A stretch of DNA of 64,000 nt, taken from the NCBI GenBank assembly GCA_945919465.1, contig CAMEJG010000005.1, forward strand, positions 16,923 to 80,922. Reading direction: 5' to 3'. Below, in pieces: positions 3,001 through 58,423 of the stretch. Made by a program: the position numbers and the translations under genes. Each line of letters begins with the position of its first letter. The stretch's first letter is position 1. The stretch is from an uncultured Anaeroplasma sp. (GTDB taxonomy: Bacteria; Bacillota_I; Bacilli_A; Acholeplasmatales; Anaeroplasmataceae). The notes beneath the pieces are model-generated. The model worked only from the letters and a program-made list of their open reading frames with translations. It searched no databases and had not been told where the DNA came from.

Positions 3001-3269
3001 AAACTCAAGGAATCAAACAAGAAATATTAGATTATCATAATTTAAAAGAAAAATATAAAAATCAAAATACAGAAAATTATACATCATATAAAACTAATAT
3101 TTCAGATGCTGAAATGACAATAGCCTTTAATAAGAAAAATCTTAATAAAAGCATAAAATCATTAGATAATGAGCTAAGACTATTAATAAAGGCTGAAAAT
3201 AAAAAGCATAAAATCCAATTGAAAAAAATTGATAAATCAGTTAGAAAAAAGAAATATTTTACTAGTTAA
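3..3269 (+). CDS. Giant Lys/Glu/Asn-rich coiled-coil protein, 5'-truncated by window start (at least 1088 aa visible)
   Basis: Frame of the 1260..3269 ORF stays open upstream to position 3 with no stop and no in-frame ATG; translation is continuous heptad-like K/E/L/N-rich sequence. Confidence 0.85.
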   Translation, partial: KSTNSLIKEANSNKKRFHQVVLEKEKEIKELEDLEKINISKSEIEKDQRIKLLNEKLEHDKKEAIKQIEENKNSSKETNKYFLNDYRETEKRLAFKNQSSKDYYNNCIKKYNNRLENELKNIDKAYSRLYINYDNDTKALITKYNRLIEDYNNQYKKLQKDKLDYITALNIESKESTINLNNEIRPLFDTKNKNIEERRAIYSKEQNTSNIEKENKRHDLHNESNRITKEFIVNVKAIDSKIEEYKKEYENNRESKINTTLYTILEDHKRLQFEVSELINQNDSLETKKLITLKYKLFSKRKEKLEAKLDNELRILEVSFLKTLESEFLEKKRLEFEKNTIIKKLIEEENTLVKQYQEFNNKYEANLRYDEGKYKITYDINSSSIKHSHNIEQIKKKREKNIRLAEFDIELQKISYKIKMTEANLKITKELNSLIHEYEDKVYQKKKSFNTVFTMLEIERHKTLSEYNDNLYKLKLNEAKEEFRFNGNLSDLKNKIFEKDINNELEINEKYVDIEILSHNNEHDKNKLNSEIVIMNTKRKNFSYLEEYKLLLQNELFNLDFKHVQIETTNYYLFLKLMCSSIFSIIEIVDKSIEAKKEIITELRNFFISLEICIIDYVKSIMKCYKDNIKAIIEDNRKNLENLYFNQKREKLKLKYDNDIIIQKNNIISNKNKADLLSDDNTEHNKKLYALKSKYNKTKSILERWHIQKDINAITNIINRNDRKIKNYKTNIQKIQKEIEKIKNNYLYAKNRINKTIDKELKSYKTLLEDIIEINSNLLTNINSVLNEPYDSTDYVDYFSNLETKISNVINNLDKSLSSIYNVINDFKLKRYLELEKKNITLKKNLRHNEHATSIEIREKEYNFDKKYKELFRNCKNEINNCKKNNLISKMKSKEEIQNLRNEHDKATKILQQENKNLGANLYLSLYAVLENIKAIELDYHMSIGDCKNKIYQKSFKDELKEKENILTIKTNDIKKLEEKRLYLYEENKKADIRGYITQETQGIKQEILDYHNLKEKYKNQNTENYTSYKTNISDAEMTIAFNKKNLNKSIKSLDNELRLLIKAENKKHKIQLKKIDKSVRKKKYFTS

Positions 3270-21733: not shown

Positions 21734-21896
21734 TACCTCCCTTTTTATTATATGAAATAAAAATATTTTTGTTTTATTTCATTTATATATTAATACAATA
21801 TAATATATGAAAAATTATTATTTTTGAGATTATTTACATTATTTATATATAAATTAATAATAAAAAGTATTATAATATCAAAAAAAGGTGATGTTA

Positions 21897-22931
21897 ATGA
21901 AAGATAAAATAGATCAAAATCCAAGACAAATAGAATTATTTGAAAAATATTATAATATTGATAAAGAAAATAAAATTATAGGTATTACTATGCATTATGA
22001 AAAAGCTAGTGATATTTTAAATATTAATTTAGGTAATCCTAATAAGCCTCTTTTTTCATTAGAAGTATTAAAGGATATCAGTAATATTATTAGCAATACT
22101 CCTTATGGATATAAAGTTGAATTATGCTTTGAAATAGCTGATTATGAATCATATTCTCCAGAAATAATAATAGAATCTTTTAATGATTCATTAGAATTGA
22201 ATCAATATTCAGCAAGAAACCATCGTCAAAGAAAAGAATTTCTTTCAGGTATTTTAATATTAATTGGCATTATTCTTTTATTAATATTAGTTTTAGGTAG
22301 AAATCTTAATTGGTTTATTAATTCTTTAAGAAACAGTATTATTGAAGAAGTATTAAATATTACTGCTTGGGTATTTGTATGGGAAGCAGTAACTCAATTA
22401 TTTCTCACTTATTCTGAACAAGGTATTTTATCAATTAGTATTAGAAAAAAAGTTGAAAGAATAAAAATGCTTAAAAAAGGAAATATAGAACCACTCGCAA
22501 TAGAAAATTCAAATGAAATTTTTAGTGAATGGGTTAATGAAGCTTTAGTGAAAAGAATTGGAAAAATATTTACACTAATATCAGGATTTTTATTTCTATT
22601 TTTATCATTTTTCACAATGTATAATTTCTTATCATTATCTTTTTCAGATACAATTAATAATGAATATTATGCTATTTTTTCAATAATAACAATTACTTCT
22701 ACTATATTATATTTACTTGCTGGAATAGGGGGCATTTTATTATATAGAGATTTAAATAAAAATATAACTAAATATATAGGTCTATATACAATATTCTTAT
22801 CTATAGGAGTATTATTAAGTTTAACTACTGCAATATTAATTCATAATGTAGAATTATTAATAATTAGTGTAGTCTCTATTATTGTTGATATAATATATGT
22901 TATAGGCTATTTAATTGATAAAAGAAAGTAA
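21897..22931 (+). CDS. Hypothetical multi-pass membrane protein
   Basis: Several hydrophobic segments; AGGTG SD before ATG 21897 (track uses GTG at 21888). Confidence 0.7.
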   Translation: MKDKIDQNPRQIELFEKYYNIDKENKIIGITMHYEKASDILNINLGNPNKPLFSLEVLKDISNIISNTPYGYKVELCFEIADYESYSPEIIIESFNDSLELNQYSARNHRQRKEFLSGILILIGIILLLILVLGRNLNWFINSLRNSIIEEVLNITAWVFVWEAVTQLFLTYSEQGILSISIRKKVERIKMLKKGNIEPLAIENSNEIFSEWVNEALVKRIGKIFTLISGFLFLFLSFFTMYNFLSLSFSDTINNEYYAIFSIITITSTILYLLAGIGGILLYRDLNKNITKYIGLYTIFLSIGVLLSLTTAILIHNVELLIISVVSIIVDIIYVIGYLIDKRK

Positions 22932-22932
22932 T

Positions 22933-22983
22933 AAAAGAGTAATCATTTTGGATTTAATGTCCAATAAGATGATTACTCTTTTA
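22933..22983. terminator. Bidirectional terminator between membrane-protein gene and CRISPR array 3' end
   Basis: AAAAGAGTAATCAT ... ATGATTACTCTTTT inverted repeat. Confidence 0.7.
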
Positions 22984-22994
22984 ATTTAACAATA

Positions 22995-25281
22995 GAATAC
23001 ATTTAAAAATATTTAACATACCTAGCAAACATTAAAGGTATAGTTAGTGCAGTACCTAAGTGTATTCTACCTATTGTATTTAACATACCTAGCAAACGGT
23101 TTATATAATAAATATGGCTTTACATCTGTATTCTACCTATTGTATTTAACATACCTAGCAAACGAGGCTGGAACTAAAGCCAAAGCTGAATATGTATTCT
23201 ACCTATTGTATTTAACATACCTAGCAAACAAAGTTTTAAAGAAGCCCTTAATTTTTTTGTATTCTACCTATTGTATTTAAAATACCTAGCAAACGATTGT
23301 GCAAGGCTCCAATTAGTTCCTACCTGTATTCTACCTATTGTATTTAACATACCTAGCAAACCCCTCCACAATGCCCTTTTATTTTAGAATAGTATTCTAC
23401 CTATTGTATTTAACATACCTAGCAAACACTTTTACTAATAATGTTCTTGATGCTACAAGGTATTCTACCTATTGTATTTAACATACCTAGCAAACTGTTT
23501 GTTTCATTAAATTTGCTCATTATATGTATTCTACCTATTGTATTTAACATACCTAGCAAACCGATAGAAAAGGAAACTTATCATTTGTAAAGTATTCTAC
23601 CTATTGTATTTAACATACCTAGCAAACTTCGTCATCCATTGCATCCACTAGGAATGATGTATTCTACCTATTGTATTTAACATACCTAGCAAACAAAAAT
23701 AAGACCATTGATTACTAATATTAGGTATTCTACCTATTGTATTTAACATACCTAGCAAACGTTGTAAATGATATTCCAAGTTTTTTTAATGGTATTCTAC
23801 CTATTGTATTTAACATACCTAGCAAACCACAGCTGCTATTAGTACATGGTACATTTCTGTATTCTACCTATTGTATTTAACATACCTAGCAAACAGATAG
23901 AGAGTGAATCTTAAGCAAGCTTTGTATTCTACCTATTGTATTTAACATACCTAGCAAACTGAAGTTATATTTGATTCTAGAAGCTATACGTATTCTACCT
24001 ATTGTATTTAACATACCTAGCAAACTCGTGAGTGGGAAAAATCAAGACTTAAAGCAGTATTCTACCTATTGTATTTAACATACCTAGCAAACATTTATGG
24101 GGAAATAGAGAAAATTTTAGATGTATTCTACCTATTGTATTTAACATACCTAGCAAACATTAAGCATGTATCTAATATATGAATTAACGGTATTCTACCT
24201 ATTGTATTTAACATACCTAGCAAACATCGCATTGAATTCATAATTACACCCCATAGTATTCTACCTATTGTATTTAACATACCTAGCAAACGCATAAGTG
24301 CTATCATTAATATCAATAATAGTATTCTACCTATTGTATTTAACATACCTAGCAAACAAAGTCTGATATATGTAAGCAACTACACCAGTATTCTACCTAT
24401 TGTATTTAACATACCTAGCAAACTCTATGTTTTGGCTTGGTCTTGCTTGTGGTGTATTCTACCTATTGTATTTAACATACCTAGCAAACTACACACATTG
24501 TAGGTGTTTCTTTCATTGAGTATTCTACCTATTGTATTTAACATACCTAGCAAACAGATAACCACCAAGTTTTTTTGTAATTTCTGTATTCTACCTATTG
24601 TATTTAACATACCTAGCAAACGCAACTAACATGTTAATTATTCTCCTTTTCGTATTCTACCTATTGTATTTAACATACCTAGCAAACGTTGCAAGTGAGA
24701 TATATTATTTATATGTAGTATTCTACCTATTGTATTTAACATACCTAGCAAACATAGTTCACGATATATTCAACTAATATTCTGTATTCTACCTATTGTA
24801 TTTAACATACCTAGCAAACATGAATGGTGCAAGTAAATTCTTTGATGTCGTATTCTACCTATTGTATTTAACATACCTAGCAAACAGGGTGGAGTTGGTT
24901 TTGACTCACATAGAGTATTCTACCTATTGTATTTAACATACCTAGCAAACGTAAATAATAGCAGCTCTTCATTTAAAGTATGTATTCTACCTATTGTATT
25001 TAACATACCTAGCAAACTAATTCACGAAGTGTTATATTCATTTTTTTGTATTCTACCTATTGTATTTAACATACCTAGCAAACAATAGCATTGTAATACA
25101 TTTCTTTGAATATGTATTCTACCTATTGTATTTAACATACCTAGCAAACATCCTTAGTTACATAATGATTAAAATCATCGTATTCTACCTATTGTATTTA
25201 ACATACCTAGCAAACCCCCTCCCGAGCATACTTGCGAGGGTATCGGTATTCTACCTATTGTATTTAACATACCTAGCAAAC
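22995..25281 (-). CRISPR. Type II-A CRISPR array: 34 recognisable 36-bp repeats plus one degenerate leader-distal repeat, 34 spacers of about 29-32 bp
   Basis: Repeat GTATTCTACCTATTGTATTTAACATACCTAGCAAAC (crRNA sense GTTTGCTAGGTATGTTAAATACAATAGGTAGAATAC) at 23062, 23128, 23194, 23259 ... 25246; degenerate copy 22995..23030. Confidence 0.99.
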
Positions 25282-25333
25282 CTCAAACCAATTTTTGAGG
25301 CCTGCTAGAACTCAATTTATATGTTAAATATAT
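25282..25333 (-). promoter_or_regulatory. CRISPR leader (very short, between csn2 stop and first repeat)
   Basis: Minus-strand leader ends ...CTCAAAAATTGGTTTGAG directly against the first repeat; similar to the recalled type II-A leader-end motif ATTTGAG. Confidence 0.75.
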
Positions 25334-25969
25334 TTATAATATACACCAATCTTCATCAAGAATCAATTCGATTTTTTCATGTGAAATGGAAGAATAACTA
25401 ATATTAACTACACTAGCATTTAATAAAATCAATTCATAATTTAACATTTCCATCTCTTTACTATTTAATAATGAAGATAATCCAAAAATGATAAATAATT
25501 TTTTTGAAAATAATTCAATATTTATTTTTAAGTATTGTAATAAATTTGTATAATAATCAGATGATATTTTATACTTTATACCTAAACTAGATAATAGTTT
25601 TGAAATATCTATTTGAGGATCGTAATCAATTTCAAAATTTGATGATAACACTAATTCTTCTGAAAGATTAAATAATAGTTCTTCTAATCTAAATAATTCT
25701 TTATTAAAACTTTCATGTAACCTTTTCTCAATTAATTTATATAAAGACTTAATAATTTTTGTATCATTAATATCAATATTTATTGGATCATATATGATAA
25801 TTGATTCTTTCATTAATTCAAATGTTTTATCATCAACACTCAATATTATTTCCGAATCAATATCCAAAGCTATTTTTCTATATATAACTGGATCTTTAAT
25901 AATAATTTGATATATTCCATTTTCAACTTCAAATGCCTTTCCAATAGAATCAATAAATAATTTTATCAT
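25334..25969 (-). CDS. csn2: Type II-A CRISPR adaptation protein Csn2
   Basis: Position after cas2 and before the array; about 211 aa; Csn2-like sequence. Confidence 0.9.
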   Translation of the reverse strand: MIKLFIDSIGKAFEVENGIYQIIIKDPVIYRKIALDIDSEIILSVDDKTFELMKESIIIYDPINIDINDTKIIKSLYKLIEKRLHESFNKELFRLEELLFNLSEELVLSSNFEIDYDPQIDISKLLSSLGIKYKISSDYYTNLLQYLKINIELFSKKLFIIFGLSSLLNSKEMEMLNYELILLNASVVNISYSSISHEKIELILDEDWCIL

Positions 25970-26286
25970 AGAATTATTAACCTTTCATCAGTTGAAATTA
26001 TATTAGAATTATCTTCACCAAGCATAATTGTCATATTATTAAATTGTTTTTCTGTAATAGGCAAAACAATAACATAGCCATTAGGAGGAAGCATTTTATT
26101 AACCTTTTCTATTGTAGAGTCAATGATTTGTTTATCTAATGCTAATTTTACATAAACAGATTCTTGAAGCATATAAAAGCCATTTTTTTTAATTTGTTTA
26201 ACAAATCTGGAAAAAAATCTTTTTTCTTCTTTCGTAACACTTGGTAAATCAAAAAACAATAATAATCTCATAAATCTATAACTCAT
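25966..26286 (-). CDS. cas2: CRISPR-associated endonuclease Cas2
   Basis: MRLLLFFDLPSVTKEEKRFFSRFVKQIKKNGFYMLQESVYVKL. Confidence 0.97.
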   Translation of the reverse strand: MSYRFMRLLLFFDLPSVTKEEKRFFSRFVKQIKKNGFYMLQESVYVKLALDKQIIDSTIEKVNKMLPPNGYVIVLPITEKQFNNMTIMLGEDNSNIISTDERLIIL

Positions 26287-27148
26287 ATTCTATAAAATGT
26301 ATCTTTCCTTTATCTCCAGATAATAAATATCCCATTAAATCTTCAACATATAATTTAATTGCATTGTCAAGAAAAATATCTTTGCCAACATATTTTACTT
26401 TTTTTGACAATAATTCTATGAATTTCAATTTGAAATTATCATCATTAATTTCATTTTTAATTATTAATGAATCTACTAATGGTCTAAGGGGCTCCATCAA
26501 ATCACAAGAAAGATTAAAAGAGTTAGATTCTCCAATATGGTGAACTCCTAATTCAGTTAAATACCCAAGTATCTTAACTTCCCTATTTACTGCAGATAAA
26601 ATAATTGAATAACCATAGTTTAAATATTTATTAATATTACATTCATCATCTCTAGAAAAATCTTTACCAAATAAAGAATTAAAATAAACCTTAGCTGCAT
26701 GACCTTCTCTATTTGTTTTATCATCCTCAATCACATTTAAAGAATAATCAACTAATAATTGATAACTATCGTATTTTTTCAAATAATTTAAATTTTTTGC
26801 TTGATTAATTATTTTCATTACTACTATTTCATTCCATAATATATTTTTAAATTCTTGTGAAATTACCATTTGGGATTTTATTTTCCTGTAAGAATAAAAA
26901 TTATTTTGATATGGTACTAATTCTCCTTCAGGGTTATGTTTATCATCAATAAAAATCACTTTTATTTTTCTTTTCATTAATTCAAACAATAAACTAGAAG
27001 TTATAGACACCTGTAATGAATCAATTACAAGTGTCTTTATCTCATCTAATAATATTAACTTCTCAGTCTCTGAATTTTTATAAACAAGATAATTTAATGA
27101 ATATTCTAGTTTACATCTGCTGCTAACCATTACTGTTCTAAATGCCAT
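26276..27148 (-). CDS. cas1: CRISPR-associated endonuclease Cas1 (type II)
   Basis: FIDDKHNPEGELVPY, REGHAAKVYFNSLFG, GVHHIGESNSFNLSCDLMEPLRPLVD. Confidence 0.98.
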   Translation of the reverse strand: MAFRTVMVSSRCKLEYSLNYLVYKNSETEKLILLDEIKTLVIDSLQVSITSSLLFELMKRKIKVIFIDDKHNPEGELVPYQNNFYSYRKIKSQMVISQEFKNILWNEIVVMKIINQAKNLNYLKKYDSYQLLVDYSLNVIEDDKTNREGHAAKVYFNSLFGKDFSRDDECNINKYLNYGYSIILSAVNREVKILGYLTELGVHHIGESNSFNLSCDLMEPLRPLVDSLIIKNEINDDNFKLKFIELLSKKVKYVGKDIFLDNAIKLYVEDLMGYLLSGDKGKIHFIEYEL

Positions 27149-30100
27149 TATTCGCTTGGAACCTCAAATAATTCTTTAGAATAATACCCAGTAATTGATT
27201 CAGAAATAAATTTCATACCGGGTTTAAGTTTCTTACTAACCGCTAGCTTTCCAGAATTAGCACTTAAGTTTACTAATTTTAAATTTGCTAATTGTCTTGT
27301 GTTAGTTTGAAGAAGTTTTAATAACTCATAACAAATAAAAATATATTCCTCGATATTTAATTCTCCATCCCATGCATCTAGCTTTTCATGCAATGATAAT
27401 ATGTTACTGTAAGAATATACCTTCTTTGCCATTTTATCAATAATTATCTTAAATAGATATTTAACTTCATCAATAGATAATTCAGTTCCATCACTTTTTT
27501 GAGTTGCAGGAGATATATATACTACATTATCCTTTGCAAGCATCAAATATCCTAAGCGCTTATTATCATAATACTTTTCCAATTTTTTTATGATAACAAT
27601 ATCTTTCTTAGAAAAATATCTATCAGAAAGATTCTTGATATTGTATGAATCATCTGTTTTACTAGCAATACAATATTTCAATTCATTTTGTCTTACAACA
27701 ATATTAGATCGTATATCATTATGAATAATCTCATAGTTTTGATATTTACTTTGTTTCATATATGAATCTATATTATTTTCATAAGCCTTTGGAATTGGTT
27801 CAAGAATGTATTCTATTTTACCTTTTGATGATATATTCTTTACTATAATATATTTTGAGAATGAATATGATGTAAATCCACCATATTGAGAAATATCTGA
27901 CCTTGGATCAGTCAACGAAACTGGGGCTGTTCCTTTACCTGCAGGATTAATAGTTACTTTTTTTAATAATTCATTAGAGCTATATGTACGAGTAGTCTCC
28001 TTGACATCATATCTTTCATATAGATTATGATTAATTAATTTAAGCATTTTATCTAATTCCCAAATTGGTTTGCCATTAATATAACGATTTTTTTCTAATA
28101 TTTTCATAGGATTCATAGTTTTATTTTCGGTCTTCATTCGATAATAATCAATATATCCATTGAAATGATTAAAGGTATAATATTTATTAACTGCTCTACC
28201 AATGACAACATTAAGATAAGCATCATGAGCATGATGGAAATTATTTGCTAATCTTGACTTTGGCCAATTAAACTTATGTCTAGCATCTGATACTATTTCT
28301 GCTTTAGAATAAATAATATTTGTTGCAGGGACATTTTTAAATAGCTTCAAAGTAGTAATTAGACCTTTTACAGCTTGATTAGTTGCTACTATTTGTCTAT
28401 TTACAAAAGATTCAAGTTCAGTAGGATTTAATTCTTTTTTAGTTAATCTAGAATATTTTTCTTTAGAAATTAAATCTTTAGAAGATAAAAATTCATAAAA
28501 TTTATATGCTTGAGGATGTAAGAAGCCTTTTAACTCAAATAGCATATCATCCTGCTTTTTATTATTGTAAGACTTTAGTACTAATACCTTATTACTCATT
28601 GAATCATCTTTTACTAAAGATTGAGGATAAATATGGTCAACATCATACATATTATTTTTTTGTAGTAAAGTACCAAAATCTATCTTTTCAAGTGAATACA
28701 TGCATCGTCCTAATTGAGTAAAATATAAATAAATCATGTCAGAACGAAGATTATTTTTATTTAACTCTAATTTTTCCTCTAATTCTTTTAAATCAACATC
28801 AAATGGTAAATTTTTGCAATTGCTATATAATTCTTTTATGCGATCATATCTTGAAGTAGATTGAACGTTCTTTTCTTTTTTATTAGTTCTTGTGCATTCA
28901 ATATAATATTTGTCAATTTTATGATTTAAAATACGTTCGACTTCTTCTATAATTTTATATGCTTGAACTAATGGCCTATGATTTATAGGAGATATGGCAA
29001 TATTTTCACTCAAAAAATCATCTAATGATAAGCCATCTACAATATATTCAGAATTATATTCATCAATAATATCTGAATATCTATAATCAGGATGAAATAA
29101 TATCTCTTGTAAATTCATATTGGTTTTTTCCATAACGTCAAGTAAGGTTCCATAAATCTCACCAGTATTAGGATTAATAATCTTCAATCCATTAATAAAT
29201 TTATAAGATAAATTTGAATAATCTTTATAATTTAAATCTTTTATTTTCTTTACAATTGCTTTATCAAGATTATAAACATTAATTAATCTTTTTTCTAATC
29301 TGTTCTTATCACTAAAAATAACAATATCTTTTATTATTTGTTCAATAGTATCCAGATTAGTTTCAACATCACCAAATAACTCTTTGAACTTAATATATGA
29401 AGACATATCACAATTAACTTCAGGTAAATCCTTAAGTTTTGTTGTAGAAATAACATTATCACCATAATTGGCCTTTAAGTATTCCAAAATATCTTTTTTT
29501 GTAGGTTTCTTCGTCTTTAAAAAAACATTATTAAATAATGACATTTTGATTTCATAACTAATTAATGCGCCATTAATATTTAATTTATTTAAATATGATA
29601 AGCAATTATATTTTGAAAATACTATAGAATTCTTTGGCAAACAATAATCAGTGCTACCTTTTAAATATGTACATTTTCTTTGCATTCTTTGGATAAATTC
29701 AATTTCTGTTTTATCTAAATCTATCATTTCCTCATAATTCCAAGGATAGATTTTTCCATCATTCTTGCGAACCATCCAAGCTTTATCGCTCTTTTCAACT
29801 GTTGTTAATGGACCAACATAATATGGAATAACGAATTTAAAAATAGATATTATTTTATCATAATTTGTAGTTTCATTATTTTCATCATTAATAAATGAAT
29901 AATATTTAGATTGTTTATCAAGTATAGTCTTAATTTCCATCAAATTCAATTGCATAGGAATAGAACCATTTTGATCAGAATTTTGTCTCAATAGAAAATC
30001 ATTATTATCTATTTTCATTTTAAAATAATTAATTTCATCTACTGCATTATTATCTTTTATACTTGAAAACAATGATAATAGATATTTATAGAAATCCTCA

Positions 30101-31254
30101 CGTTTACAATGTGAAAATCTTTTTGGATGTTTAGAAGATACACTAGTCATTCCAATATATCTAGCATAATTGCAAATATTTTCATTATGATATCTAAAGC
30201 ACTCATTATATTTTCCTGGCAAATATTCTTTTATAAAGTGTTTCAATTTTTTTAGATCTGCTTGATGTTCATCGAATTTTTTTACCATTGCATCACATAA
30301 ATAATTGCTGTCACCCAATAAATCTACTAGATAATAGTAATCTATAATCAATTTTAGTGAAGGAATAAAATCAAAAACAGTTTCAAATTCAGGAACTAAA
30401 TCCTTATTATTACTAACTAATGTTTCAATATCTTCACATTCTAGGGTAATATCACATTTATCATATTTAAAGTCTTTTACTGGAGTAAGCTTACTGAAAT
30501 TACAATTTGAGCCAACTAATAATGGTATTAAGCATTCTGAAATAAACGATTTATTTTGACTGTTAAATAAATTTTTTAATTGAATTTTTTTATTAGTTTT
30601 ACCATTTTTTGATGTCATGATTATACCAAATTCGTTTAATATATCATCGTTAAAATTTATTTGGGCAAAATAATCAGAATAATCTTCAAATTTATAAGAC
30701 ATTTCGACTAAAATATTATTTAAAATACTAAATACTTCTTTTATTTGATTTGTATTACTTTTATCAAATGAATCTCCTTTTGATAAAAAGTTACCTCGAT
30801 ATTTAATCATATTATGAAGTGCTAAATAAATAAATCTTATATCTTCCTTTTTATTAGAATATACTAAATGTTGTCTTAAATGATAAATTGTTGGGAATTC
30901 CTTAAAAAACTCTTTATCAGTATAAACATCATTGAACAAATTATATATATTGCCATGTTTTTTATGTTCTTTTTTATAAAATGAATCATCTAATCTTTCA
31001 AAAAATGTGGGATCAATATTATTAACCTCTTTTGAAAAAATATCTCTTAATAAATTTATTCTTTGTCTTCTTCTTTTAATTCTTCTTCTAGAAGACCTAT
31101 AAGCTCTTCTTTCTGATGAATCTTTTGATTCGGAAAACATTCTTACTCCCCATAAAGCATAACCATTCTTCTTCACAATTTCATTATTTTCATCAACTAC
31201 AGCCCATCCTACTGAGTCTGTACCAATGTCTAAACCTAAACTAATTTCTGACAT
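27148..31254 (-). CDS. cas9: Cas9 endonuclease (type II-A), 1368 aa
   Basis: RuvC-I GLDIGTDSVGWAVVD; Arg-rich bridge helix RRAYRSSRRRIKRRRQRINLL; HNH YDVDHIYPQSLVKDDSMSNKVLV; RuvC-III HHAHDAYLNVVIG; SD AAGGAGAA. Confidence 0.99.
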   Translation of the reverse strand: MSEISLGLDIGTDSVGWAVVDENNEIVKKNGYALWGVRMFSESKDSSERRAYRSSRRRIKRRRQRINLLRDIFSKEVNNIDPTFFERLDDSFYKKEHKKHGNIYNLFNDVYTDKEFFKEFPTIYHLRQHLVYSNKKEDIRFIYLALHNMIKYRGNFLSKGDSFDKSNTNQIKEVFSILNNILVEMSYKFEDYSDYFAQINFNDDILNEFGIIMTSKNGKTNKKIQLKNLFNSQNKSFISECLIPLLVGSNCNFSKLTPVKDFKYDKCDITLECEDIETLVSNNKDLVPEFETVFDFIPSLKLIIDYYYLVDLLGDSNYLCDAMVKKFDEHQADLKKLKHFIKEYLPGKYNECFRYHNENICNYARYIGMTSVSSKHPKRFSHCKREDFYKYLLSLFSSIKDNNAVDEINYFKMKIDNNDFLLRQNSDQNGSIPMQLNLMEIKTILDKQSKYYSFINDENNETTNYDKIISIFKFVIPYYVGPLTTVEKSDKAWMVRKNDGKIYPWNYEEMIDLDKTEIEFIQRMQRKCTYLKGSTDYCLPKNSIVFSKYNCLSYLNKLNINGALISYEIKMSLFNNVFLKTKKPTKKDILEYLKANYGDNVISTTKLKDLPEVNCDMSSYIKFKELFGDVETNLDTIEQIIKDIVIFSDKNRLEKRLINVYNLDKAIVKKIKDLNYKDYSNLSYKFINGLKIINPNTGEIYGTLLDVMEKTNMNLQEILFHPDYRYSDIIDEYNSEYIVDGLSLDDFLSENIAISPINHRPLVQAYKIIEEVERILNHKIDKYYIECTRTNKKEKNVQSTSRYDRIKELYSNCKNLPFDVDLKELEEKLELNKNNLRSDMIYLYFTQLGRCMYSLEKIDFGTLLQKNNMYDVDHIYPQSLVKDDSMSNKVLVLKSYNNKKQDDMLFELKGFLHPQAYKFYEFLSSKDLISKEKYSRLTKKELNPTELESFVNRQIVATNQAVKGLITTLKLFKNVPATNIIYSKAEIVSDARHKFNWPKSRLANNFHHAHDAYLNVVIGRAVNKYYTFNHFNGYIDYYRMKTENKTMNPMKILEKNRYINGKPIWELDKMLKLINHNLYERYDVKETTRTYSSNELLKKVTINPAGKGTAPVSLTDPRSDISQYGGFTSYSFSKYIIVKNISSKGKIEYILEPIPKAYENNIDSYMKQSKYQNYEIIHNDIRSNIVVRQNELKYCIASKTDDSYNIKNLSDRYFSKKDIVIIKKLEKYYDNKRLGYLMLAKDNVVYISPATQKSDGTELSIDEVKYLFKIIIDKMAKKVYSYSNILSLHEKLDAWDGELNIEEYIFICYELLKLLQTNTRQLANLKLVNLSANSGKLAVSKKLKPGMKFISESITGYYSKELFEVPSE

Positions 31255-31270
31255 TTTTTTATTCTCCTTA

Positions 31271-31299
31271 TTGACATTTTAATTATTTGGCGTTAAACT
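31271..31299 (+). promoter_or_regulatory. Putative sigma-A promoter of tracrRNA
   Basis: TTGACA (31271-31276), 17-nt spacer, TAAACT (31294-31299). Confidence 0.7.
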
Positions 31300-31305
31300 A
31301 TGTAT

Positions 31306-31378
31306 GTATTTAACAAACCGAGTGCAAATAAAGCATTTGCGAAAACTAGGAGTCCTGATGTAGGGACTCATTTTTTTT
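31306..31378 (+). ncRNA. tracrRNA
   Basis: Anti-repeat GTATTTAACAAACCGAGTGCAAAT complementary to crRNA repeat GTTTGCTAGGTATGTTAAATAC with 2-nt/4-nt bulge; then AATAAAGCATTTGCG nexus-like segment; terminator GAGTCC-TGATGTAG-GGACTC-A-TTTTTTTT. Confidence 0.9.
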
Positions 31379-31891
31379 GCTTTTACTTCTCCTTTTATAA
31401 TAAAGTTTTCTAACTGTAATACATTCTTCACTGACATGAAATTTTGAAATAAGAATTTCATTATCTAAATTAATATACTTAGTAGGGATAAGTAATTGTC
31501 CAGCAAACTCGTTAGCCTGCCATTCAGGGTCTTTATATGACACATCACTTATTTCATCAACAAATTCAAAATTTAATATTTTAACCTGAATATAATGAAA
31601 TAACTCATGGGCTAATGTGAAACAAGCTCTATAGATTCCAGATTCATATTCATCAATAACTGATTCCTTAATATAAATGTAATTCTCAATGGCATTATAA
31701 ATTGCAGGAGTATTATCATCGAAAATTTCATTATCATCCTCCAGAAATTGTATTGATAATAATTTATTTTCAAATAATATATCTAATACTTCTAATATAG
31801 GAAAAAATTGATCCTCGTTTATATTAAATTGTTTCCGAAAATTTGATGCAATCTCTTCAATTTCTTTTATTTTTAAAGGACTAGTTATCAT
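31346..31891 (-). CDS. ImmA/IrrE-family metallo-endopeptidase
   Basis: HExxH: FTLAHELFHYIQ; DPEWQANEFAGQLLIP. Confidence 0.9.
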   Translation of the reverse strand: MITSPLKIKEIEEIASNFRKQFNINEDQFFPILEVLDILFENKLLSIQFLEDDNEIFDDNTPAIYNAIENYIYIKESVIDEYESGIYRACFTLAHELFHYIQVKILNFEFVDEISDVSYKDPEWQANEFAGQLLIPTKYINLDNEILISKFHVSEECITVRKLYYKRRSKSKKNESLHQDS

Positions 31892-32240
31892 CTTCTAATA
31901 AAGCCTTTCTTAGTTTTTCTAAAAGTTCTTCATCAGCAGTATTTATTTTTCTAGCAAATACCAATGAAATATTTTTTTGAGCCTCATTCATTTGTTCTAA
32001 TTCTAAAGATACCCTTTTATTAGTTTCATTGATGCTATCCAATAGCACATCTTTTTCTTCATCAGATAGTAAATACAAGGATGCTATTTTATCTACATAA
32101 TCCATAGGTATTGTTTTTCTTCCCACTTCCATAGCTGATAAAAATGCAGAAGATATTCCTAATTTAGTTGCCATTTTCCTTAAAGAATCTCCCTGTTTTA
32201 AACGGATTTTTCTTATCTCTGTTCCAAATTTACTTATCAT
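31881..32240 (-). CDS. XRE-family HTH transcriptional regulator
   Basis: IRKIRLKQGDSLRKMATKLGISSAFLSAMEVGRKTIP helix-turn-helix; overlaps downstream protease gene. Confidence 0.92.
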   Translation of the reverse strand: MISKFGTEIRKIRLKQGDSLRKMATKLGISSAFLSAMEVGRKTIPMDYVDKIASLYLLSDEEKDVLLDSINETNKRVSLELEQMNEAQKNISLVFARKINTADEELLEKLRKALLEDDN

Positions 32241-32272
32241 ATTTAATTCACCTTATCCTTGCATCTATTTTA

Positions 32273-32301
32273 ATTATAAATTAATAATAACTTCGTGTCA
32301 A
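32273..32301 (-). promoter_or_regulatory. Consensus sigma-A promoter for XRE-protease (possibly reading into cas9)
   Basis: Minus strand TTGACA-17-TATAAT exactly. Confidence 0.8.
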
Positions 32302-32342
32302 CCATTTTGGTATGCATAAATAATAAAAAAACAGTATAAATA

Positions 32343-32507
32343 TTATTCAAACTTTTTAATAATTGTTTTCATATTCTCAGCTTGAGATAATAATTCCATT
32401 TTATCATCAAATTCTAATGTTTCAGCTAATTCAATTATTTGTTGTAACTCCTCTTCTAATATCATTTTTACTAAATTAGCCTCTTCTTTTGTTAAATTTA
32501 TATTCAT
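32343..32507 (-). CDS. Small hypothetical protein, 54 aa (MNINLTKEEANLVKMILEEELQQIIELAETLEFDDKMELLSQAENMKTIIKKFE)
   Basis: GGAGGTAATTGTAT-ATG strong SD; below the ORF-track cutoff; translated by hand. Confidence 0.7.
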   Translation of the reverse strand: MNINLTKEEANLVKMILEEELQQIIELAETLEFDDKMELLSQAENMKTIIKKFE

Positions 32508-32706
32508 ATACAATTACCTCCAAAGTTCATATTAATAATATATAAAAAATAAGTAAACATCTTATATTAAATTTTATCATATTATCAATTAAATTGATAT
32601 TGATATTTTAGTAAAATAATATTATTTAACATAGTAACAATATTATAATTACTACTAGCCTACTTAATTTTATAGAAAAATATTTGTTAGTATATAAAAA
32701 AAATGA

Positions 32707-32732
32707 AAATAGTGTGTTTTTCAACACACTAT
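32707..32732 (-). terminator. Terminator of Sel1-TIR-NTPase gene
   Basis: ATAGTGTGTT-gaaa-AACACACTATTTTCATTTTTT on minus strand. Confidence 0.75.
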
Positions 32733-32738
32733 CATATA

Positions 32739-35700
32739 TTATTTATTATTTAGTTTATTTTTAATAAATTCATTATAGAAGAAATGATTTCTTTTTACAG
32801 ATTTTTCAATTAGGTCTATTACCTCTTTTGATACACCATTATCTGATAAATATTTTTCTAATGTATAATTAAATGCTTCATAGGATAAATGATTCTTATT
32901 CATTTCTACTTTAGAATCTAATGAATGTATTTCTAGATCTAGTTTTAATAATAAATCAGTAGCTATAATTTTCCAAGTATCTCCATTTGAAAGATTATAA
33001 TCTATATAATCATCTAAAATATTAATATCATTATCCTTCTTTAAAGAATAACCTATTTTTGGTCTTCTACCAGATTTAATATAACTTTCGCCAAATATAT
33101 ATAACGCCACAAAATAATCTCTAAAGATATCATGAGAGATATTTTCCCCAATAATAATTGATCTTCTTCTTAGATATTTAGCTATTTCTTTTGATGCGTG
33201 TTCTATGTTATCAACACTAGCTTGAGTATCCTCCATATATTGTCTAAAAAGCTCTTCAACTGTTTCTAAGCTATTATCCACTCTACAATAAGCTAAATAG
33301 CCTAAAAGCTTTAATAAATTATTATTTGATAAATAATTAGAATAGTCAAATGTTATATTTCGATCCTCTTCTATATCCTTGACCATAATATTTACTGATT
33401 CAGTTAATATTTCAAAGGATTTATTAGGGACATTATTAGAAACTAAATATATAAATATTAGATTTGATATTAATAAAGGATTTTTCTTTATATCATCTTC
33501 TATTAATTCTAAACTATTACTAAATGATTCCCATGTTACCTTATCCAATATATTGTTAGATTCTTTCTGTAAATATTTTTTAGATAATGAATTAAATAGC
33601 TTATGAATATCCTCTTTATTTAATCCCTTTAATTCTAATGCTTTTATACTTTGATGTAGATATTCAGTCAATAAGTTTGAATCAGCAGCATTTCTAGATG
33701 AAAATATATAATGAATATTAGGATATCCATCTTTAAAATATCCTAGCTTTTCTAATAATATTTTTTTCTTTTCTTCATTTATTTCATCTAAAGCATCAAT
33801 TAATATGTATACTTCAGTAGAAGGACTAAATATTCCTTCAAAACCACTAGATGTAATTCTTTCACCTTCTGTTTTTGCAAAATGAAGATTAAAGGCTTTT
33901 TCTCTTAATATATCAACAAATAATTTTTCCGAATCAATTACATCATCAATGTCCTTTGTAGGCAAGAAAAATAAATATCTATTATCAATGAATTCTTTCC
34001 TTAATAGATTTTTTAAATATAGTGATTTGCCACTTCCACCTTCTCCATAAATTAGTACAGGATTAGTTTCATTAAAAACATTTCCATTATATTTATTGTT
34101 ATCTTCATAAAGTGGTCTATTAATATAACCATTTTCAAAATCTAAAGTGGCTGCAATAATACCAGATTTAGAATCCATTTTATTGACACGATTTTGTAGT
34201 GCTGAAGAAAAATATTTATATTTATTAATTAGTTTTTCTTTATATTCATATTTAAGTGATACGTCAATAGCGTTTCTTACAAACTTAATTAATAAATCAA
34301 CATCAATATTACCATTAATAGCAAATCCAGAACACAAATTGTTCATTTTCTTAAATGGATTTGATTCATCTAATATATTTAAGAACTTTTCAGAATTATT
34401 TAAATAAACTGGCCTTATGCATTTTTGTAGTTTTTCATTATTAGCAGTTTTTTCAAAAATTATCTCTATTTCTTTTTTTACCCATTCACTTTTAATTGAA
34501 TTTTCTGATACTAAAATAATATATGACTTTGATGATAAAATGGCATTTTTAACACATTCCTCAATATCTCCTAATCCAGATCCATCAGATTCCCATACAG
34601 TACAATAGCCTTTTTCTTCCAAAATATTACAGATTTCATCTTTTATCTTTTTATCATTATGATTCCAAGAAATAAATACATCTTTTTTTTCAGAGATATG
34701 AAGAGTTTCTTTTTGTTTTTCTTTTTCAATTTGCTTTTTTAGTCTTTCATAAGATTCTTTAGCCTCTTCACAACCTAATGCTGTAGCTAATTCATACCAA
34801 TTCAATGCTTCCTCTAAATCTTTTTCTACACCATCACCATTTTCATAGCAAGTAGCTAAAGTATACTGAGCCATTAAATTAAGCCTGGAAGCGGATTCAC
34901 TATAATAATCAACTGCCTGTTTTTTATCAGTATCTACTCCTTCTCCCCTATAGTAGCAGTTTCCTAGCATATATAAAGCATAAGAATTTTTATATTTTGC
35001 AGCCTTTTTATACCACGAGAGAGACCTTTCTAAATTTTTTTCTACACCTTTACCAAAATAATAATAATCTCCTAAATAACAACAAGCCTCTGGATAACCT
35101 TTTTCAGCAGCCTTTTTATACCAAGATAATGCTTCTTTTAAATTTTTTTCTACACCTTTACCATATTCATAGCAGAGACCAAAATTGCATTGTGCTTCAA
35201 AATCCCCTTGCTCGGCAGCCTTTTTATACCAAAAGAATGCTTTCTCTAAATTCTTTTTTACACCTTTTCCATATTCATAAAAATTTCCTAAAGTTTTTTG
35301 GGATTCCAAATGTCCCTGTTCTGCGGCTTTTTTATACCAATAGAATGCTTGTTCCAAATCTCCTATTTTGTTTTTTTCATAACAATTATTCTTAATGATA
35401 ACTACCCGATCAACTTCGAAGCCATTTTCTTGTTCATCACTCAATAATTGTTTTTTTAAATCATCTTCAAAAATATCATCCATATAACAATTTGAATAAT
35501 ATTCACCTAAGTTGAATTGGGCAGTTGCATTATCTTGGTCAGCTGATTTTTTATACCAATAGATTGCTTGTTCTAAATCTTTGGTTACACCTTCCCCATG
35601 TTCATAACAATAGCCTAAATTATTTTGAGCAGTTGCATTACCTTGGTCAGCTGATTTTTTATACCAAAAAATTGCTTGAGCTATATTGGCATTTATGTCG

Positions 35701-36302
35701 TCTGTATTATTTTGCAATACATCAAAATCACTTTGATCCTTTTCATTTTTTAGTTTTTCATTAAATAATTGTTTTTCTAATTCTAATATATCCTGATAAC
35801 AATTATAATAATATGCGCCCAAATTTAATTGGGCTTTTGCATTACCTTGGTCAGCTGATTTTTTATACCAATGGATTGCTTGTTCTAAATCTTTGGTTAC
35901 ACCTTCCCCATGTTCATAACAATAGCCTAAATTATTTTGAGCAGTTGCATTACCTTGGTCAGCTGATTTTTTATACCAATGGATTGCTTGTTCTAAATCC
36001 TTGGTTGCACCTTTACCATATTGATAACAATAGCCCAAATTGAATTGAGCTTTTGCATTATTTTTCTCAGATGCCTTTTTATAAAGAGAAACTGCTTGTT
36101 TTAAATCTAGAATAGCACCCTTCCCATAAAAATAACAAGAACCTAATATCAATAAATAATCACCTGTATTATCATAATTTATATTTTCATTTAAATGTTT
36201 TACTAATTCATCATATTTAGAAGAATCTTCAAAATCAACCTTTGACATTCCATATTCTATAGCATCTTCAATAAATTCTTCAATAGTTCTACAAATAATC
36301 AT
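32739..36302 (-). CDS. Sel1-repeat / TIR domain / NACHT-like (STAND) NTPase fusion protein, 1187 aa
   Basis: About 10 or more Sel1 repeats (ALSWYKKAAEKGYPEACCYLGDYYYFGKGVEKN); TIR-like KKDVFISWNHNDKKIKDEICNILEEKGYCTVWESDGSGLG; Walker A VLIYGEGGSGKSLYLKNLL; Walker B VYILIDALDEINEE. Confidence 0.92.
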   Translation of the reverse strand: MIICRTIEEFIEDAIEYGMSKVDFEDSSKYDELVKHLNENINYDNTGDYLLILGSCYFYGKGAILDLKQAVSLYKKASEKNNAKAQFNLGYCYQYGKGATKDLEQAIHWYKKSADQGNATAQNNLGYCYEHGEGVTKDLEQAIHWYKKSADQGNAKAQLNLGAYYYNCYQDILELEKQLFNEKLKNEKDQSDFDVLQNNTDDINANIAQAIFWYKKSADQGNATAQNNLGYCYEHGEGVTKDLEQAIYWYKKSADQDNATAQFNLGEYYSNCYMDDIFEDDLKKQLLSDEQENGFEVDRVVIIKNNCYEKNKIGDLEQAFYWYKKAAEQGHLESQKTLGNFYEYGKGVKKNLEKAFFWYKKAAEQGDFEAQCNFGLCYEYGKGVEKNLKEALSWYKKAAEKGYPEACCYLGDYYYFGKGVEKNLERSLSWYKKAAKYKNSYALYMLGNCYYRGEGVDTDKKQAVDYYSESASRLNLMAQYTLATCYENGDGVEKDLEEALNWYELATALGCEEAKESYERLKKQIEKEKQKETLHISEKKDVFISWNHNDKKIKDEICNILEEKGYCTVWESDGSGLGDIEECVKNAILSSKSYIILVSENSIKSEWVKKEIEIIFEKTANNEKLQKCIRPVYLNNSEKFLNILDESNPFKKMNNLCSGFAINGNIDVDLLIKFVRNAIDVSLKYEYKEKLINKYKYFSSALQNRVNKMDSKSGIIAATLDFENGYINRPLYEDNNKYNGNVFNETNPVLIYGEGGSGKSLYLKNLLRKEFIDNRYLFFLPTKDIDDVIDSEKLFVDILREKAFNLHFAKTEGERITSSGFEGIFSPSTEVYILIDALDEINEEKKKILLEKLGYFKDGYPNIHYIFSSRNAADSNLLTEYLHQSIKALELKGLNKEDIHKLFNSLSKKYLQKESNNILDKVTWESFSNSLELIEDDIKKNPLLISNLIFIYLVSNNVPNKSFEILTESVNIMVKDIEEDRNITFDYSNYLSNNNLLKLLGYLAYCRVDNSLETVEELFRQYMEDTQASVDNIEHASKEIAKYLRRRSIIIGENISHDIFRDYFVALYIFGESYIKSGRRPKIGYSLKKDNDINILDDYIDYNLSNGDTWKIIATDLLLKLDLEIHSLDSKVEMNKNHLSYEAFNYTLEKYLSDNGVSKEVIDLIEKSVKRNHFFYNEFIKNKLNNK
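35525..35979. repeat. Long near-identical direct repeats inside the Sel1 region (143-bp copies at 35525-35667 and 35837-35979, 312 bp apart)
   Basis: Hand alignment shows 2 mismatches over 143 bp. Confidence 0.85.
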
Positions 36303-36661
36303 TTATAACCTCACAATAATATATATTTTGTTAAATTTTATCATATTATGTTTATAATGCATATATATTTATATACAAATTTATTAATAGGCACTTTCAA
36401 TTCTCTAAAACAATTAAACAGGTTTCATGTTTTTATGATATGCCTAGCGATATTTGATAGAATGATTAGCTTACGATAAGGAGATATGTTTCCTAGAAAC
36501 AATTAAATAAAATCAATATTTGCATGTTTTGGGTTAAAAAATAGATTGTTTCACCAAGTCATTATCTATTTACTAACACGAGGTTTGAGCCATTCATCTA
36601 GTCATTTTTAACCATATACTAATACATCCCTAGTTCTAAAAGCCTATTTTTAGGTAAAAAT

Positions 36662-36705
36662 AAAAAGCAGCTTCAAAACCGAAAATTCAGTCATAAAGCC
36701 ACTTT
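36662..36705 (-). terminator. Compound hairpin terminator downstream of rlmD-like gene
   Basis: Minus strand GTGGCTT-TATG-ACTGAA-TT-TTCGGT-TTTG-AAGCTGC-TTTTTATTTTT. Confidence 0.65.
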
Positions 36706-36713
36706 TTCACTTT

Positions 36714-38057
36714 TTATCTATCCTTCTTACGTTCTAGTAAACAAACTACTTCCACATGCAAAGTAGAACCAAATAGATTTACTGGTGTAGCCTCAATAAG
36801 TTCATAACCATTTTTCATTAATATCTCTACATCTCTTGCTAGAGTTGCAACATTACAAGAAACATAAACAATATTAGGAATTTCCATATTAATAACTGTT
36901 TTTAAGAATTCTATATCACAGCCCTTACGAGGTGGATCAAATACAATAACATCTACTTTTTCATTTAATGAAATCTTTTTTATTTCTTCTTCACATTTAC
37001 CACATATAAAGCTACAATTATCAATTTCATTTAATAATTTATTTTTATTGGCATTTTCTATTGCTTCCTTTACAATTTCTATACCATAAACATATTTGGC
37101 ATTTTTAGCTAAATTAAGTGTAATACTGCCTATTCCACAATAGGCATCTATTACATTCATTTTTTTATTGATATTTGCCATTCTTAATACTTCTTTATAT
37201 AATGCTTCACATTGATCATGATTAACCTGTAAAAATGATTGAGGTGATACCATAAATTTCAATCCTAAAATATCCTCAGTAATTTGAGGAATACCATATA
37301 ATAGCTTATAGGTATTAGATAATACTACATTTGTTTTTTCAGGATTAATATTTAAATATATCGATTTAATTTCTTTGAATTCAGATATTAAATAATCTAT
37401 AAGCTTAGAAAAATCATAATCCTTTGTTGTTACTAAAACAACCATATATTCATTTAATGCAGTATGACGAACCATTACCTCCTTAAATAAACCTTTATGT
37501 TCTTTTTCATTATAAATAGAAATATGAAAGATATTTAAATATCTATTAATAAAATTAATTATTTTATTACTTAAATCATCTGATATTAAACAATTATCCA
37601 TAGGAATAATATCATGAGAATTCTTTTGATAAAAGCCCCAAATTCTTTCATCATCTTCATTTATTCCAAATGGTACCATTACCTTATTTCTATATCCTAA
37701 TATTTTAGGATTAGAAATTATATTATTTATTTTACAATTAGGAAATTTTCTAAATGATAATTTTAATTTATTCTCTTTTATTAAGCATTCTGTTTCATAA
37801 TCAACATGCATCAAATCACAACCACCGCATAATCCATAATAAGGACATACTGGTTTAATTCTATGTGAGGATTCTTTTAATACCTTTATACATTCAGAAA
37901 AAGCATATTTTTTATGAACATTTGTAATTTTAATAATAACTTCCTCATCAACTAATGAGTTTTTTACAAAAACAACTAAATCACTAATATGACATACTCC
38001 ATATCCATTAACATCATATGATTCAATTATTACCTTATATGTTTCTCCTTCATGCAT
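36714..38057 (-). CDS. rlmD: 23S rRNA (uracil) methyltransferase, RlmD/RumA family
   Basis: TRAM-like N-term, CPYYGLCGGCDLMHVDY, DAYCGIGSITL, FDPPRKGCD, YVSCNVATLARD. Confidence 0.93.
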   Translation of the reverse strand: MHEGETYKVIIESYDVNGYGVCHISDLVVFVKNSLVDEEVIIKITNVHKKYAFSECIKVLKESSHRIKPVCPYYGLCGGCDLMHVDYETECLIKENKLKLSFRKFPNCKINNIISNPKILGYRNKVMVPFGINEDDERIWGFYQKNSHDIIPMDNCLISDDLSNKIINFINRYLNIFHISIYNEKEHKGLFKEVMVRHTALNEYMVVLVTTKDYDFSKLIDYLISEFKEIKSIYLNINPEKTNVVLSNTYKLLYGIPQITEDILGLKFMVSPQSFLQVNHDQCEALYKEVLRMANINKKMNVIDAYCGIGSITLNLAKNAKYVYGIEIVKEAIENANKNKLLNEIDNCSFICGKCEEEIKKISLNEKVDVIVFDPPRKGCDIEFLKTVINMEIPNIVYVSCNVATLARDVEILMKNGYELIEATPVNLFGSTLHVEVVCLLERKKDR

Positions 38058-56413: not shown

Positions 56414-58423
56414 ATGCAAACAATACTTAATATTTTTTTAGGTTCTTCTATTGTCGAATTAAAAAAAGAAAGAGAAGCTATTAAAAGTATGATCACAGAT
56501 ATTAATAGTAAGCTTAGAAAAAAGAATATTTTGATATATTTATATGCTTGTGAACAAAAAGATTTAATATACAAAGGTTATAGATCTCAAGATGAATTAA
56601 ATGATGATGTTAGAAAAAGTGATTATTCAATTTTTATTATAGGTAAATCATTAGGAGAAAAAACAAAAGAGGAATTTAATATTGCGCTAGATGGATTCAA
56701 TAAAAACAATAAACCTCAAATAATGGTAATGTTTAAAAAGATTCCAGAATATGAAAAAGATCATAGTGTAATATATTTCCAAAAAGAATTAGCTGAAAAA
56801 TATGAATACTATTATGAGCAATATGAAACTGAGTCTGATGCTGCTGCAATAGTTGCCTCATTAATTAATTCTATTAGTGGTGAGCTTTTAGTATCTCAAA
56901 GTGACGGTGTTTATATAGATGGAGAAAAGCTTTATGATTATGATAGGGAAATAAACAATAATAAACAAGTAAATGAAATTAAAACAAAAATAAATACTCT
57001 TGAAAATAAAATAAAGCTTGATAATACTAATGAAGAATTAAAAATAGAATTATCAAATTATCAGAAGAAGCTTTTCTTTTTAACTAATTCAATTAATAAT
57101 ATCTTATTATCATTAGCTGATTCCGTTGGATTTGGAGTTACTAATGAATATAAAAAGGCAGTTGATTTTATAAAAGGTGGCGATACAATTCTTGCAAAAT
57201 CAACATTAGAATATAATTCTATTTTAAGACATAAAGAATATATAGACAATATATTAGAATTAAGAAAAACCTTAATTAATTCTGTTAATGCCTTAATAAA
57301 AGAAAATAATCTATTAATTAAGCTAAAAGCTTTAGAAAGAATAGATGATTTAGAAATAAGAAAGCTATATGAAGAAAACATTGCATTAGAGAACTATGCC
57401 GGAATTGAACCTATAAGTGAATATAATTATGGAGATTATTTATTTGGTGTTACAGATTATTATAAAGCATTCAATCATATTTATTCTTATTTTTCATATT
57501 TATATTATGCGAAAGGTCAAAATAATCAAAAGCTATATGAAATGGCTAAAACTATATTAAGATTAGGTACTATTTATTCTCATATTTTTCAATTTAATGA
57601 TGCGAAATATTGTTATTCTACCTCTGTAAAAATACATGAAGAGCTTGCAAAAGAAAATGCTAAGCTTTATATCTTACAAAGAGCTGATTCCTATAATAAG
57701 CTAGGTAATGTTTGTGATGATCTTAAGGATTATAATTTAGGAGAATTTTATCATAATAAGGCTATTGAGTTATATAAAGAATCATATGATGATTATAAAG
57801 AGTGTAAATATGAATTAGGCTATAGCTATAATAAACAAGGTAATATTTTTAGACATAAAGCCTTAGAAGAAAAAAATAATAATTTATTTGATGAAGCAAA
57901 TAAGGATTTTGAAAAAGCATTATATTATTATAATTTAAATAAAAGCTTTACATTAGAAAATCTAATGGATAGTAGAAAGAAAAAAGAGACCTTAGGAATT
58001 AATGAAAAATCCATTGGTCTAACTTATCATTCTATGGGAGATTATAATGAAGCAATAAAGCATTTTAATAATTCATTAGAATATTTTGAAGAAAGTGTAT
58101 CTAAAAAAGTATTATATGTATGCTTCCAATATGCAAAAGTTTTATATCATAAATCTATGTCACTGTATTTATCATCCCCTGAAGATATAGATATAAAAGA
58201 TGATATTAGAGACTATTTGTGTGATGGTCAAAAATATTTATTAGAGTTATACGAAAAGAAGATAAATTTAAGAGAAGTATTATTTGAATTATCAAGAAAT
58301 TATTCTTTATTATATTCAATAAGAAAAAATAATAAATATATTGAGATTAAAGAAAAATATGATAATGAGCTTAAAGAGCTTAGTTCAAATAAATTATTCT
58401 CTATTTCTACAAGATTATATTAA
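56414..58423 (+). CDS. TIR-like/DUF4062-like N-terminal domain + C-terminal TPR repeats, 669 aa
   Basis: NIFLGSSIVELKKEREAI...KSDYSIFIIGKSLGEKTKEEFNIALDGFNKNNKPQIMVMFKK; TPR-like DSYNKLGNVCDDLKDYNLGEFYHNKAIELYKES. Confidence 0.8.
   Translation: MQTILNIFLGSSIVELKKEREAIKSMITDINSKLRKKNILIYLYACEQKDLIYKGYRSQDELNDDVRKSDYSIFIIGKSLGEKTKEEFNIALDGFNKNNKPQIMVMFKKIPEYEKDHSVIYFQKELAEKYEYYYEQYETESDAAAIVASLINSISGELLVSQSDGVYIDGEKLYDYDREINNNKQVNEIKTKINTLENKIKLDNTNEELKIELSNYQKKLFFLTNSINNILLSLADSVGFGVTNEYKKAVDFIKGGDTILAKSTLEYNSILRHKEYIDNILELRKTLINSVNALIKENNLLIKLKALERIDDLEIRKLYEENIALENYAGIEPISEYNYGDYLFGVTDYYKAFNHIYSYFSYLYYAKGQNNQKLYEMAKTILRLGTIYSHIFQFNDAKYCYSTSVKIHEELAKENAKLYILQRADSYNKLGNVCDDLKDYNLGEFYHNKAIELYKESYDDYKECKYELGYSYNKQGNIFRHKALEEKNNNLFDEANKDFEKALYYYNLNKSFTLENLMDSRKKKETLGINEKSIGLTYHSMGDYNEAIKHFNNSLEYFEESVSKKVLYVCFQYAKVLYHKSMSLYLSSPEDIDIKDDIRDYLCDGQKYLLELYEKKINLREVLFELSRNYSLLYSIRKNNKYIEIKEKYDNELKELSSNKLFSISTRLY

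Follow-up and report, generated by a model that had tools for sequence, protein, structure and literature searches.

Bacterial NACHT (bNACHT) proteins have been described as running from an N-terminal effector through the NACHT NTPase to a C-terminal sensor (PMC12169576, PMC10907252), and TIR domains have been noted in the literature as the N-terminal effector of NACHT-type proteins. In Avs proteins, a STAND NTPase carries an effector at its N-terminus and a TPR-type sensor at its C-terminus. Plant TIR-NLRs such as RPP1 and RUN1 place a TIR before an NB-ARC-type STAND NTPase and carry an LRR sensor at the C-terminus, and SARM1 and TIR-1 have a helical-repeat solenoid N-terminal of the TIR, with ARM and SAM domains. 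One report describes Sel1 repeats fused to an NB protein in a green alga (PMC7145615). In the accessible portions of the literature on Sel1, TIR and NACHT we found no description of the order Sel1-TIR-NACHT, which agrees with the proposal in an earlier sequence-only reading of this DNA that the architecture may be undescribed; an earlier listing is conceivable.

Here we analyze a protein of this order encoded in the window, a 64,000-nucleotide stretch of a contig from an uncultured Anaeroplasma sp. Like bNACHT and other bacterial NLR-related STAND proteins, it is a single-gene receptor with NACHT Walker A and Walker B motifs and a winged-helix His, and its core is predicted to fold like NLRP3 and matches EfAvs5 and Avs4, but its repeats come first, the TIR lies inside the chain, and beyond the NACHT there is no more than a short tail. 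The order effector-NACHT-C-terminal sensor is absent from all six members of its family, in which Sel1 is N-terminal (degenerate in one of them), and the C-terminal TPR-type sensor of Avs is likewise absent; we regard the protein as built on the bNACHT module without being a canonical member. It shares with plant TIR-NLRs a TIR followed by a STAND NTPase, but the NTPase is a NACHT, there is no C-terminal LRR, and a solenoid precedes the TIR. With SARM1 and TIR-1 it shares that N-terminal solenoid and a WVxKE motif; however, those proteins lack a NACHT, and Pfam finds neither ARM nor SAM domains here, so that the likeness is one of arrangement only. Its TIR is related in sequence to ThsB of Thoeris (PADLOC 1.2e-6), but it is fused to Sel1 and NACHT, and no ThsA partner adjoins it among the neighbors scanned (HTH, peptidase M78, Cas9, Cas1, Csn2, RNA methyltransferase and serine dehydratase).

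Domain organization and predicted structure

The gene is an open reading frame with an ATG at its start and no internal stops (Table 1), and its product consists of an N-terminal cap, 11 Sel1 repeats, a TIR and a C-terminal NACHT module. The reading frame and the Pfam assignments confirmed the order proposed by the sequence-only reading, with a Sel1/TPR-like N-terminus, a central TIR and a C-terminal NACHT; the matches to all three domains exceeded the gathering cut-off (TIR_2 at aa 542–636, 4.7e-13; others in Table 1), and both Walker motifs lie as that reading had stated (G753–S760 and I833–E840). A motif scan located further NACHT-module motifs, the sensor SSR (868–870) and NPL (941–943), and the protein has the Walker A, Walker B, sensor Arg and winged-helix His of a bNACHT module. 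No repeats follow the NACHT, either by Pfam or in the core model.

Table 1. Positions in the window of the Sel1-TIR-NACHT gene, its parts and the adjacent gene pair.
Feature	Position	Strand	Basis
Sel1-TIR-NACHT protein, 1187 aa	32739..36302	-	ORF and Pfam
N-terminal cap, aa 1-45	36168..36302	-	aligns with homologs (weakly for L022) and with the stand-alone Sel1 protein that this genome encodes
Sel1 solenoid, aa 46-536, 11 repeats and two insertions; presumed sensor	34695..36167	-	PF08238 2.3e-103, repeat count, model
Duplicated solenoid block, 35478-35686 vs 35790-35998, 91% identical DNA	35478..35998	-	sequence comparison
TIR domain, about aa 541-660	34323..34682	-	Pfam TIR_2; PDB profile matches Cat1, AbTir, TIR-1
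E611 codon, candidate catalytic Glu (SEWVKKE)	34470..34472	-	invariant column; alignment with TIR-1 and Cat1
NACHT NTPase, aa 748-905	33588..34061	-	Pfam NACHT 8.3e-7; fold match to NLRP3 NACHT
Walker A GEGGSGKS, aa 753-760	34023..34046	-	motif scan
Walker B ILIDALDE, aa 833-840	33783..33806	-	motif scan
H1057, NLR-type winged-helix motif SHDIFRDYF	33132..33134	-	motif scan
Short C-terminal helical tail, aa 1070-1187, without repeat sensor	32742..33095	-	no Pfam match; low model confidence
HTH gene	31881-32240		weak capH match (PADLOC)
M78 (ImmA/IrrE-type) peptidase gene	31346-31891		weak capP match (PADLOC)

No whole-length model for the protein was found among Pfam, PADLOC and NCBIfam. For the TIR, PADLOC returned only partial matches (candidate system PDC-S66, SAVED-TIR and ThsB), and its one match in the NACHT was weak; none was to Avs. 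The sole NCBIfam match, to the antiphage NACHT protein EruA (aa 830–981, 1e-4), was weak as well.

An AlphaFold2 model of the TIR-NACHT core (8 sequences, mean pLDDT 74, pTM 0.67) had RPP1 as its best PDB match (6e-9) and also matched NLRP3, NLRP9, NLRC4, EfAvs5 and Avs4, and superposition on the NLRP3 NACHT crystal structure 7alv gave a target-normalized TM of 0.58, suggesting that the core folds like the plant TIR-NLR RPP1 and human NLRP3. This resemblance emerged from fold comparison only; when the PDB was searched with a sequence profile of the NACHT part, no NLR was among the matches. With a pTM of 0.39 (6 sequences), the full-length model was too weak to place the Sel1 rod on the core, and its solenoid was itself confident, with pLDDT mostly 80–90 outside the insertions; the structures that it matched were mostly Sel1 proteins, with RPP1 and SARM1 lower and with full-length SARM1 and TIR-1 included. 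Profile assignment and structure prediction, two of the checks suggested by the sequence-only reading, assigned Sel1, TIR and NACHT individually and gave an NLR-like core.

The TIR domain

A profile built from eight aligned TIRs of the protein and its relatives matched Cat1, AbTir and TIR-1 in the PDB. E611 is invariant in the eight TIRs, occupying one of only six invariant columns, and this column aligns with the Glu of SDWCWDE in Cat1 and of EDWVHKE in TIR-1, which we take to be the catalytic residues, as established for the TIR family. Of two candidate regions named beforehand for the catalytic Glu, WVKKEIEIIFE is thus the correct one and IEECVKNAIL is not. The domain has the TIR fold, its Glu occupies the catalytic position on the helix that follows the SxW motif, and the alignments suggest that it is likely to be an active NADase.

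TIR domains were also seen in a different fusion in several families of the class, in proteins of 435–446 aa that join a TIR to a SAM methyltransferase. Three have both domains by Pfam (L098, L099, L101), and three others (L100, L102, L104) likely belong to the same set, judging by length alone.

Distribution and relationships of the family

The Sel1-TIR-NACHT order occurs in six proteins from four gut or rumen genomes of Bacilli, comprising the window protein and five further full-length members. Three are paralogs in a single MAG (L018, L019, L020); the others are L021, from a rumen Acholeplasmatales, with degenerate Sel1 repeats that score below the cut-off, and L022, from an Erysipelotrichaceae RUG MAG whose name points to a rumen origin. 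Since the order recurs in five further proteins, neither a chance fusion nor a misassembly can explain it, and recurrence in four genomes rules out an assembly artifact. Sel1-TIR-NACHT is a real, conserved, rearranged NLR-like family. The C-terminal tail is short in all six members, H1057 is kept in five and missing from L022, and the number of Pfam Sel1 stretches varies from 6 to 11 across the clear cases.

Matches are sparse. They were found in 6 of 101 related genomes and at 8 of 161 in the search of the order, and presence is patchy even within the genus (3 of 28 genomes). Searches of the class and phylum gave no further full-length relative outside the family, TIR-only matches aside. NACHT itself is a rarity there, present in 4 of the 296 genomes of the class, three of them represented by L108, L110 and L111. 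No relatives were found in plasmid and phage collections; IMG/VR contributed one distant NACHT only.

Three proteins have the same TIR-NACHT core without the Sel1 end. One, L025, belongs to the same class, is homologous over the core and shares the catalytic-position Glu, and it ends in a C-terminal LRR; L023 and L024 carry another long C-terminal part. Another protein of the class, L111, has a TIR-like N-terminus and a NACHT followed by TPR-like helices (by eye, in a partial frame). Unlike the window protein, L025 and L111 thus have the canonical order, with C-terminal repeats and no Sel1. Two other partial frames (L108, L110) show, by eye, a P-loop near the N-terminal end of the available stretch. 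In a tree of the core, unrooted and with long branches, the Sel1 forms are set apart by a branch with support of 89/87, recovered in 92% of bootstrap trees, which is compatible with a single origin of the Sel1-first form. Directly upstream of the TIR-NACHT-LRR gene of L025 lies a 359-aa ORF (1017–2096) that looks TIR-like by eye and has no Pfam match; the two genes perhaps constitute a two-TIR system.

Mosaic paralogs

Identity between L018 and L019 is 80% for the NACHT and again for the C-terminal tail, and it falls through 57% for the TIR and 47% for Sel1 to 33% for the N-cap. Between L018 and L020 it is highest for the N-cap, at 62%, followed by Sel1 at 57% and the NACHT at 45%. Informative sites in the N half group L018 with L020 (75 vs 42), and those in the C half group it with L019 (197 vs 18 for L020), a switch of partner between the halves (75:42 vs 18:197) with a Fisher p of 5e-27. 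Because rate differences alone do not readily reverse a nearest neighbor, the simplest reading of these alignments is exchange among the three paralogs, whose Sel1 and NACHT ends differ in their nearest relatives. Repeat arrays recombine easily, and part of the signal may reflect repeat homogenization, but the non-repeat N-cap alone shows it too (20 vs 6 for L018 with L020). Such a mosaic is as expected of a recognition module swapped on a constant motor.

The window gene has a duplication of its own inside the solenoid, of a 209-nt stretch (Table 1). The same genome encodes a stand-alone Sel1 protein of 526 aa (L106, 10144–11724), whose N-cap is alignable with that of the window protein (29% identity over 508 aa) and which is a possible source of the Sel1 module.

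Genomic context

The receptor gene sits directly 3' of an rlmD-like gene. Comparison with 13 sister-species regions around the rlmD-like ortholog (L084–L096) revealed a largely conserved flank on the uvrB-rlmD side and a variable one opposite. There, sister species carry BrxC and BrxP of BREX with a Schlafen-type helicase (L084), a Gabija-like, GajB-like UvrD helicase with an FRG protein (L085), AbiU/AIPR with Schlafen and Fic (L088), HipA with an HTH (L087), RhuM/Fic (L095) or an HNH protein (L089); other genes occupy the position in L086, and some of the contigs compared end there. A variable site that holds BREX and other defense genes in sister species is a defense hotspot of the genus, with contents that differ by species (window 21888–38057). 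The defense-island setting proposed from the sequence is thus supported at the window site; it does not hold at the sites of the homologs. L021 lies between tsaD-like and glnS-like genes (named by eye), and L018, L020 and L022 have genes of surface or lipoprotein type nearby (by eye except where a domain was assigned), so an argument for defense from the homologs' own neighbors, which are housekeeping or surface-lipoprotein genes throughout L018–L022, failed.

An adjoining CRISPR locus had also been noted, and it proved to be a complete set (22995–31254), in which Pfam identifies Cas9, Cas1 and Csn2 and which also includes an ORF of cas2 size and 33 exact 36-nt repeats in an array; the presence of Csn2 types it as II-A. 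No Cas9 of this type was found in other genomes among the 28 of the genus. The XRE/protease pair beside the receptor had been taken as part of its setting. No HTH/ImmA pair was seen in the ORF listings around L018–L022, and we therefore treat the pair as a separate unit and reject it as a co-regulator; it does not travel with the defense gene as in CapH/CapP-regulated operons. A 54-aa minus-strand ORF (MNINLTKEEANLVKMIL..., 32343–32507) lies between the receptor and HTH genes. Elsewhere in the window, two 669-aa plus-strand ORFs (1260–3269 and 56414–58423) are not a duplicate pair, as they are 36% identical without gaps.

Discussion

The suggestion that this is an NLR-like protein in an unusual order is upheld by its domains, recurrence in four genomes, NLR fold match, canonical cousins and mosaic paralogs. 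We consider it somewhat probable that the protein is a stand-alone, cytosolic, single-gene abortive-infection receptor, a phage-defense NADase ordered sensor-effector-motor. The invariant E611, the variable number of Sel1 repeats, the defense hotspot at this site and the patchy presence in the genus speak for this reading, and the settings of the homologs outside defense islands speak against it. The phage trigger, the Sel1 sensor, oligomerization, the loss of NAD+ and cell death are steps that we infer. The N-terminal Sel1 solenoid would recognize a sign of infection, or a host protein that infection has perturbed, and would keep the TIR silent until then. On recognition, the C-terminal NACHT would exchange nucleotide and the receptor assemble into a ring or filament, gathering the TIR domains so that their Glu611 sites could cleave NAD+, and the infected cell would stop growing or die.

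A solenoid placed before a TIR is also found in SARM1 and TIR-1, and homologs of the window protein often lie outside defense islands. These observations would suit a SARM1-like protein in which the solenoid is an autoinhibitory gauge of metabolites or stress for the TIR, the NACHT is an oligomer scaffold, and the trigger is metabolic stress rather than phage. We regard this as unlikely, since the family as a whole has kept its NTPase motifs, the core is NLR-like, and the mosaic exchange of the Sel1 end suggests a changing specificity. It is very unlikely that the TIR is instead a non-enzymatic, homotypic signaling domain that recruits another effector. The divergence of the TIR sequences would allow this, but the catalytic-position Glu is among the few columns that do not vary, and no conserved partner gene surrounds the homologs.

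The protein might also be a bNACHT of canonical type that senses through its short C-terminal tail, with the Sel1 repeats added as an N-terminal platform, for example for localization. In favor of this, the C-terminal tail is no more than short in some bNACHT clades, such as clade 14 with SNaCT (PMC12169576). In L018 and L019, however, tail and motor are equally conserved, at 80%, and so evolve together while Sel1 differs (47%), and the cousin with the same core carries a large LRR at its C-terminus; we judge the tail after the winged helix the less likely location of the sensor, and this account as a whole improbable. Even with the receptor reading that we prefer, the Sel1 repeats might serve autoinhibition or scaffolding rather than sensing.

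A family ordered sensor-effector-motor, in which the N-terminal Sel1 solenoid is a recognition module that paralogs of a single genome swap among themselves on an unchanging NACHT motor, is a reading that we hold more tentatively, at slightly less than an even chance. Exchange of a front module is known to diversify receptors in eukaryotic NLR families, and the mosaic paralogs suggest that one bacterium may diversify its receptors in the same manner. In characterized NLR-like STAND proteins the sensor follows the motor, whereas in the Sel1-TIR-NACHT family the repeats stand in front. Together with the canonical-order cousins from the same bacterial family that share its core, this repeats-first family forms a natural pair for studying how ligand recognition is coupled to the NTPase switch.
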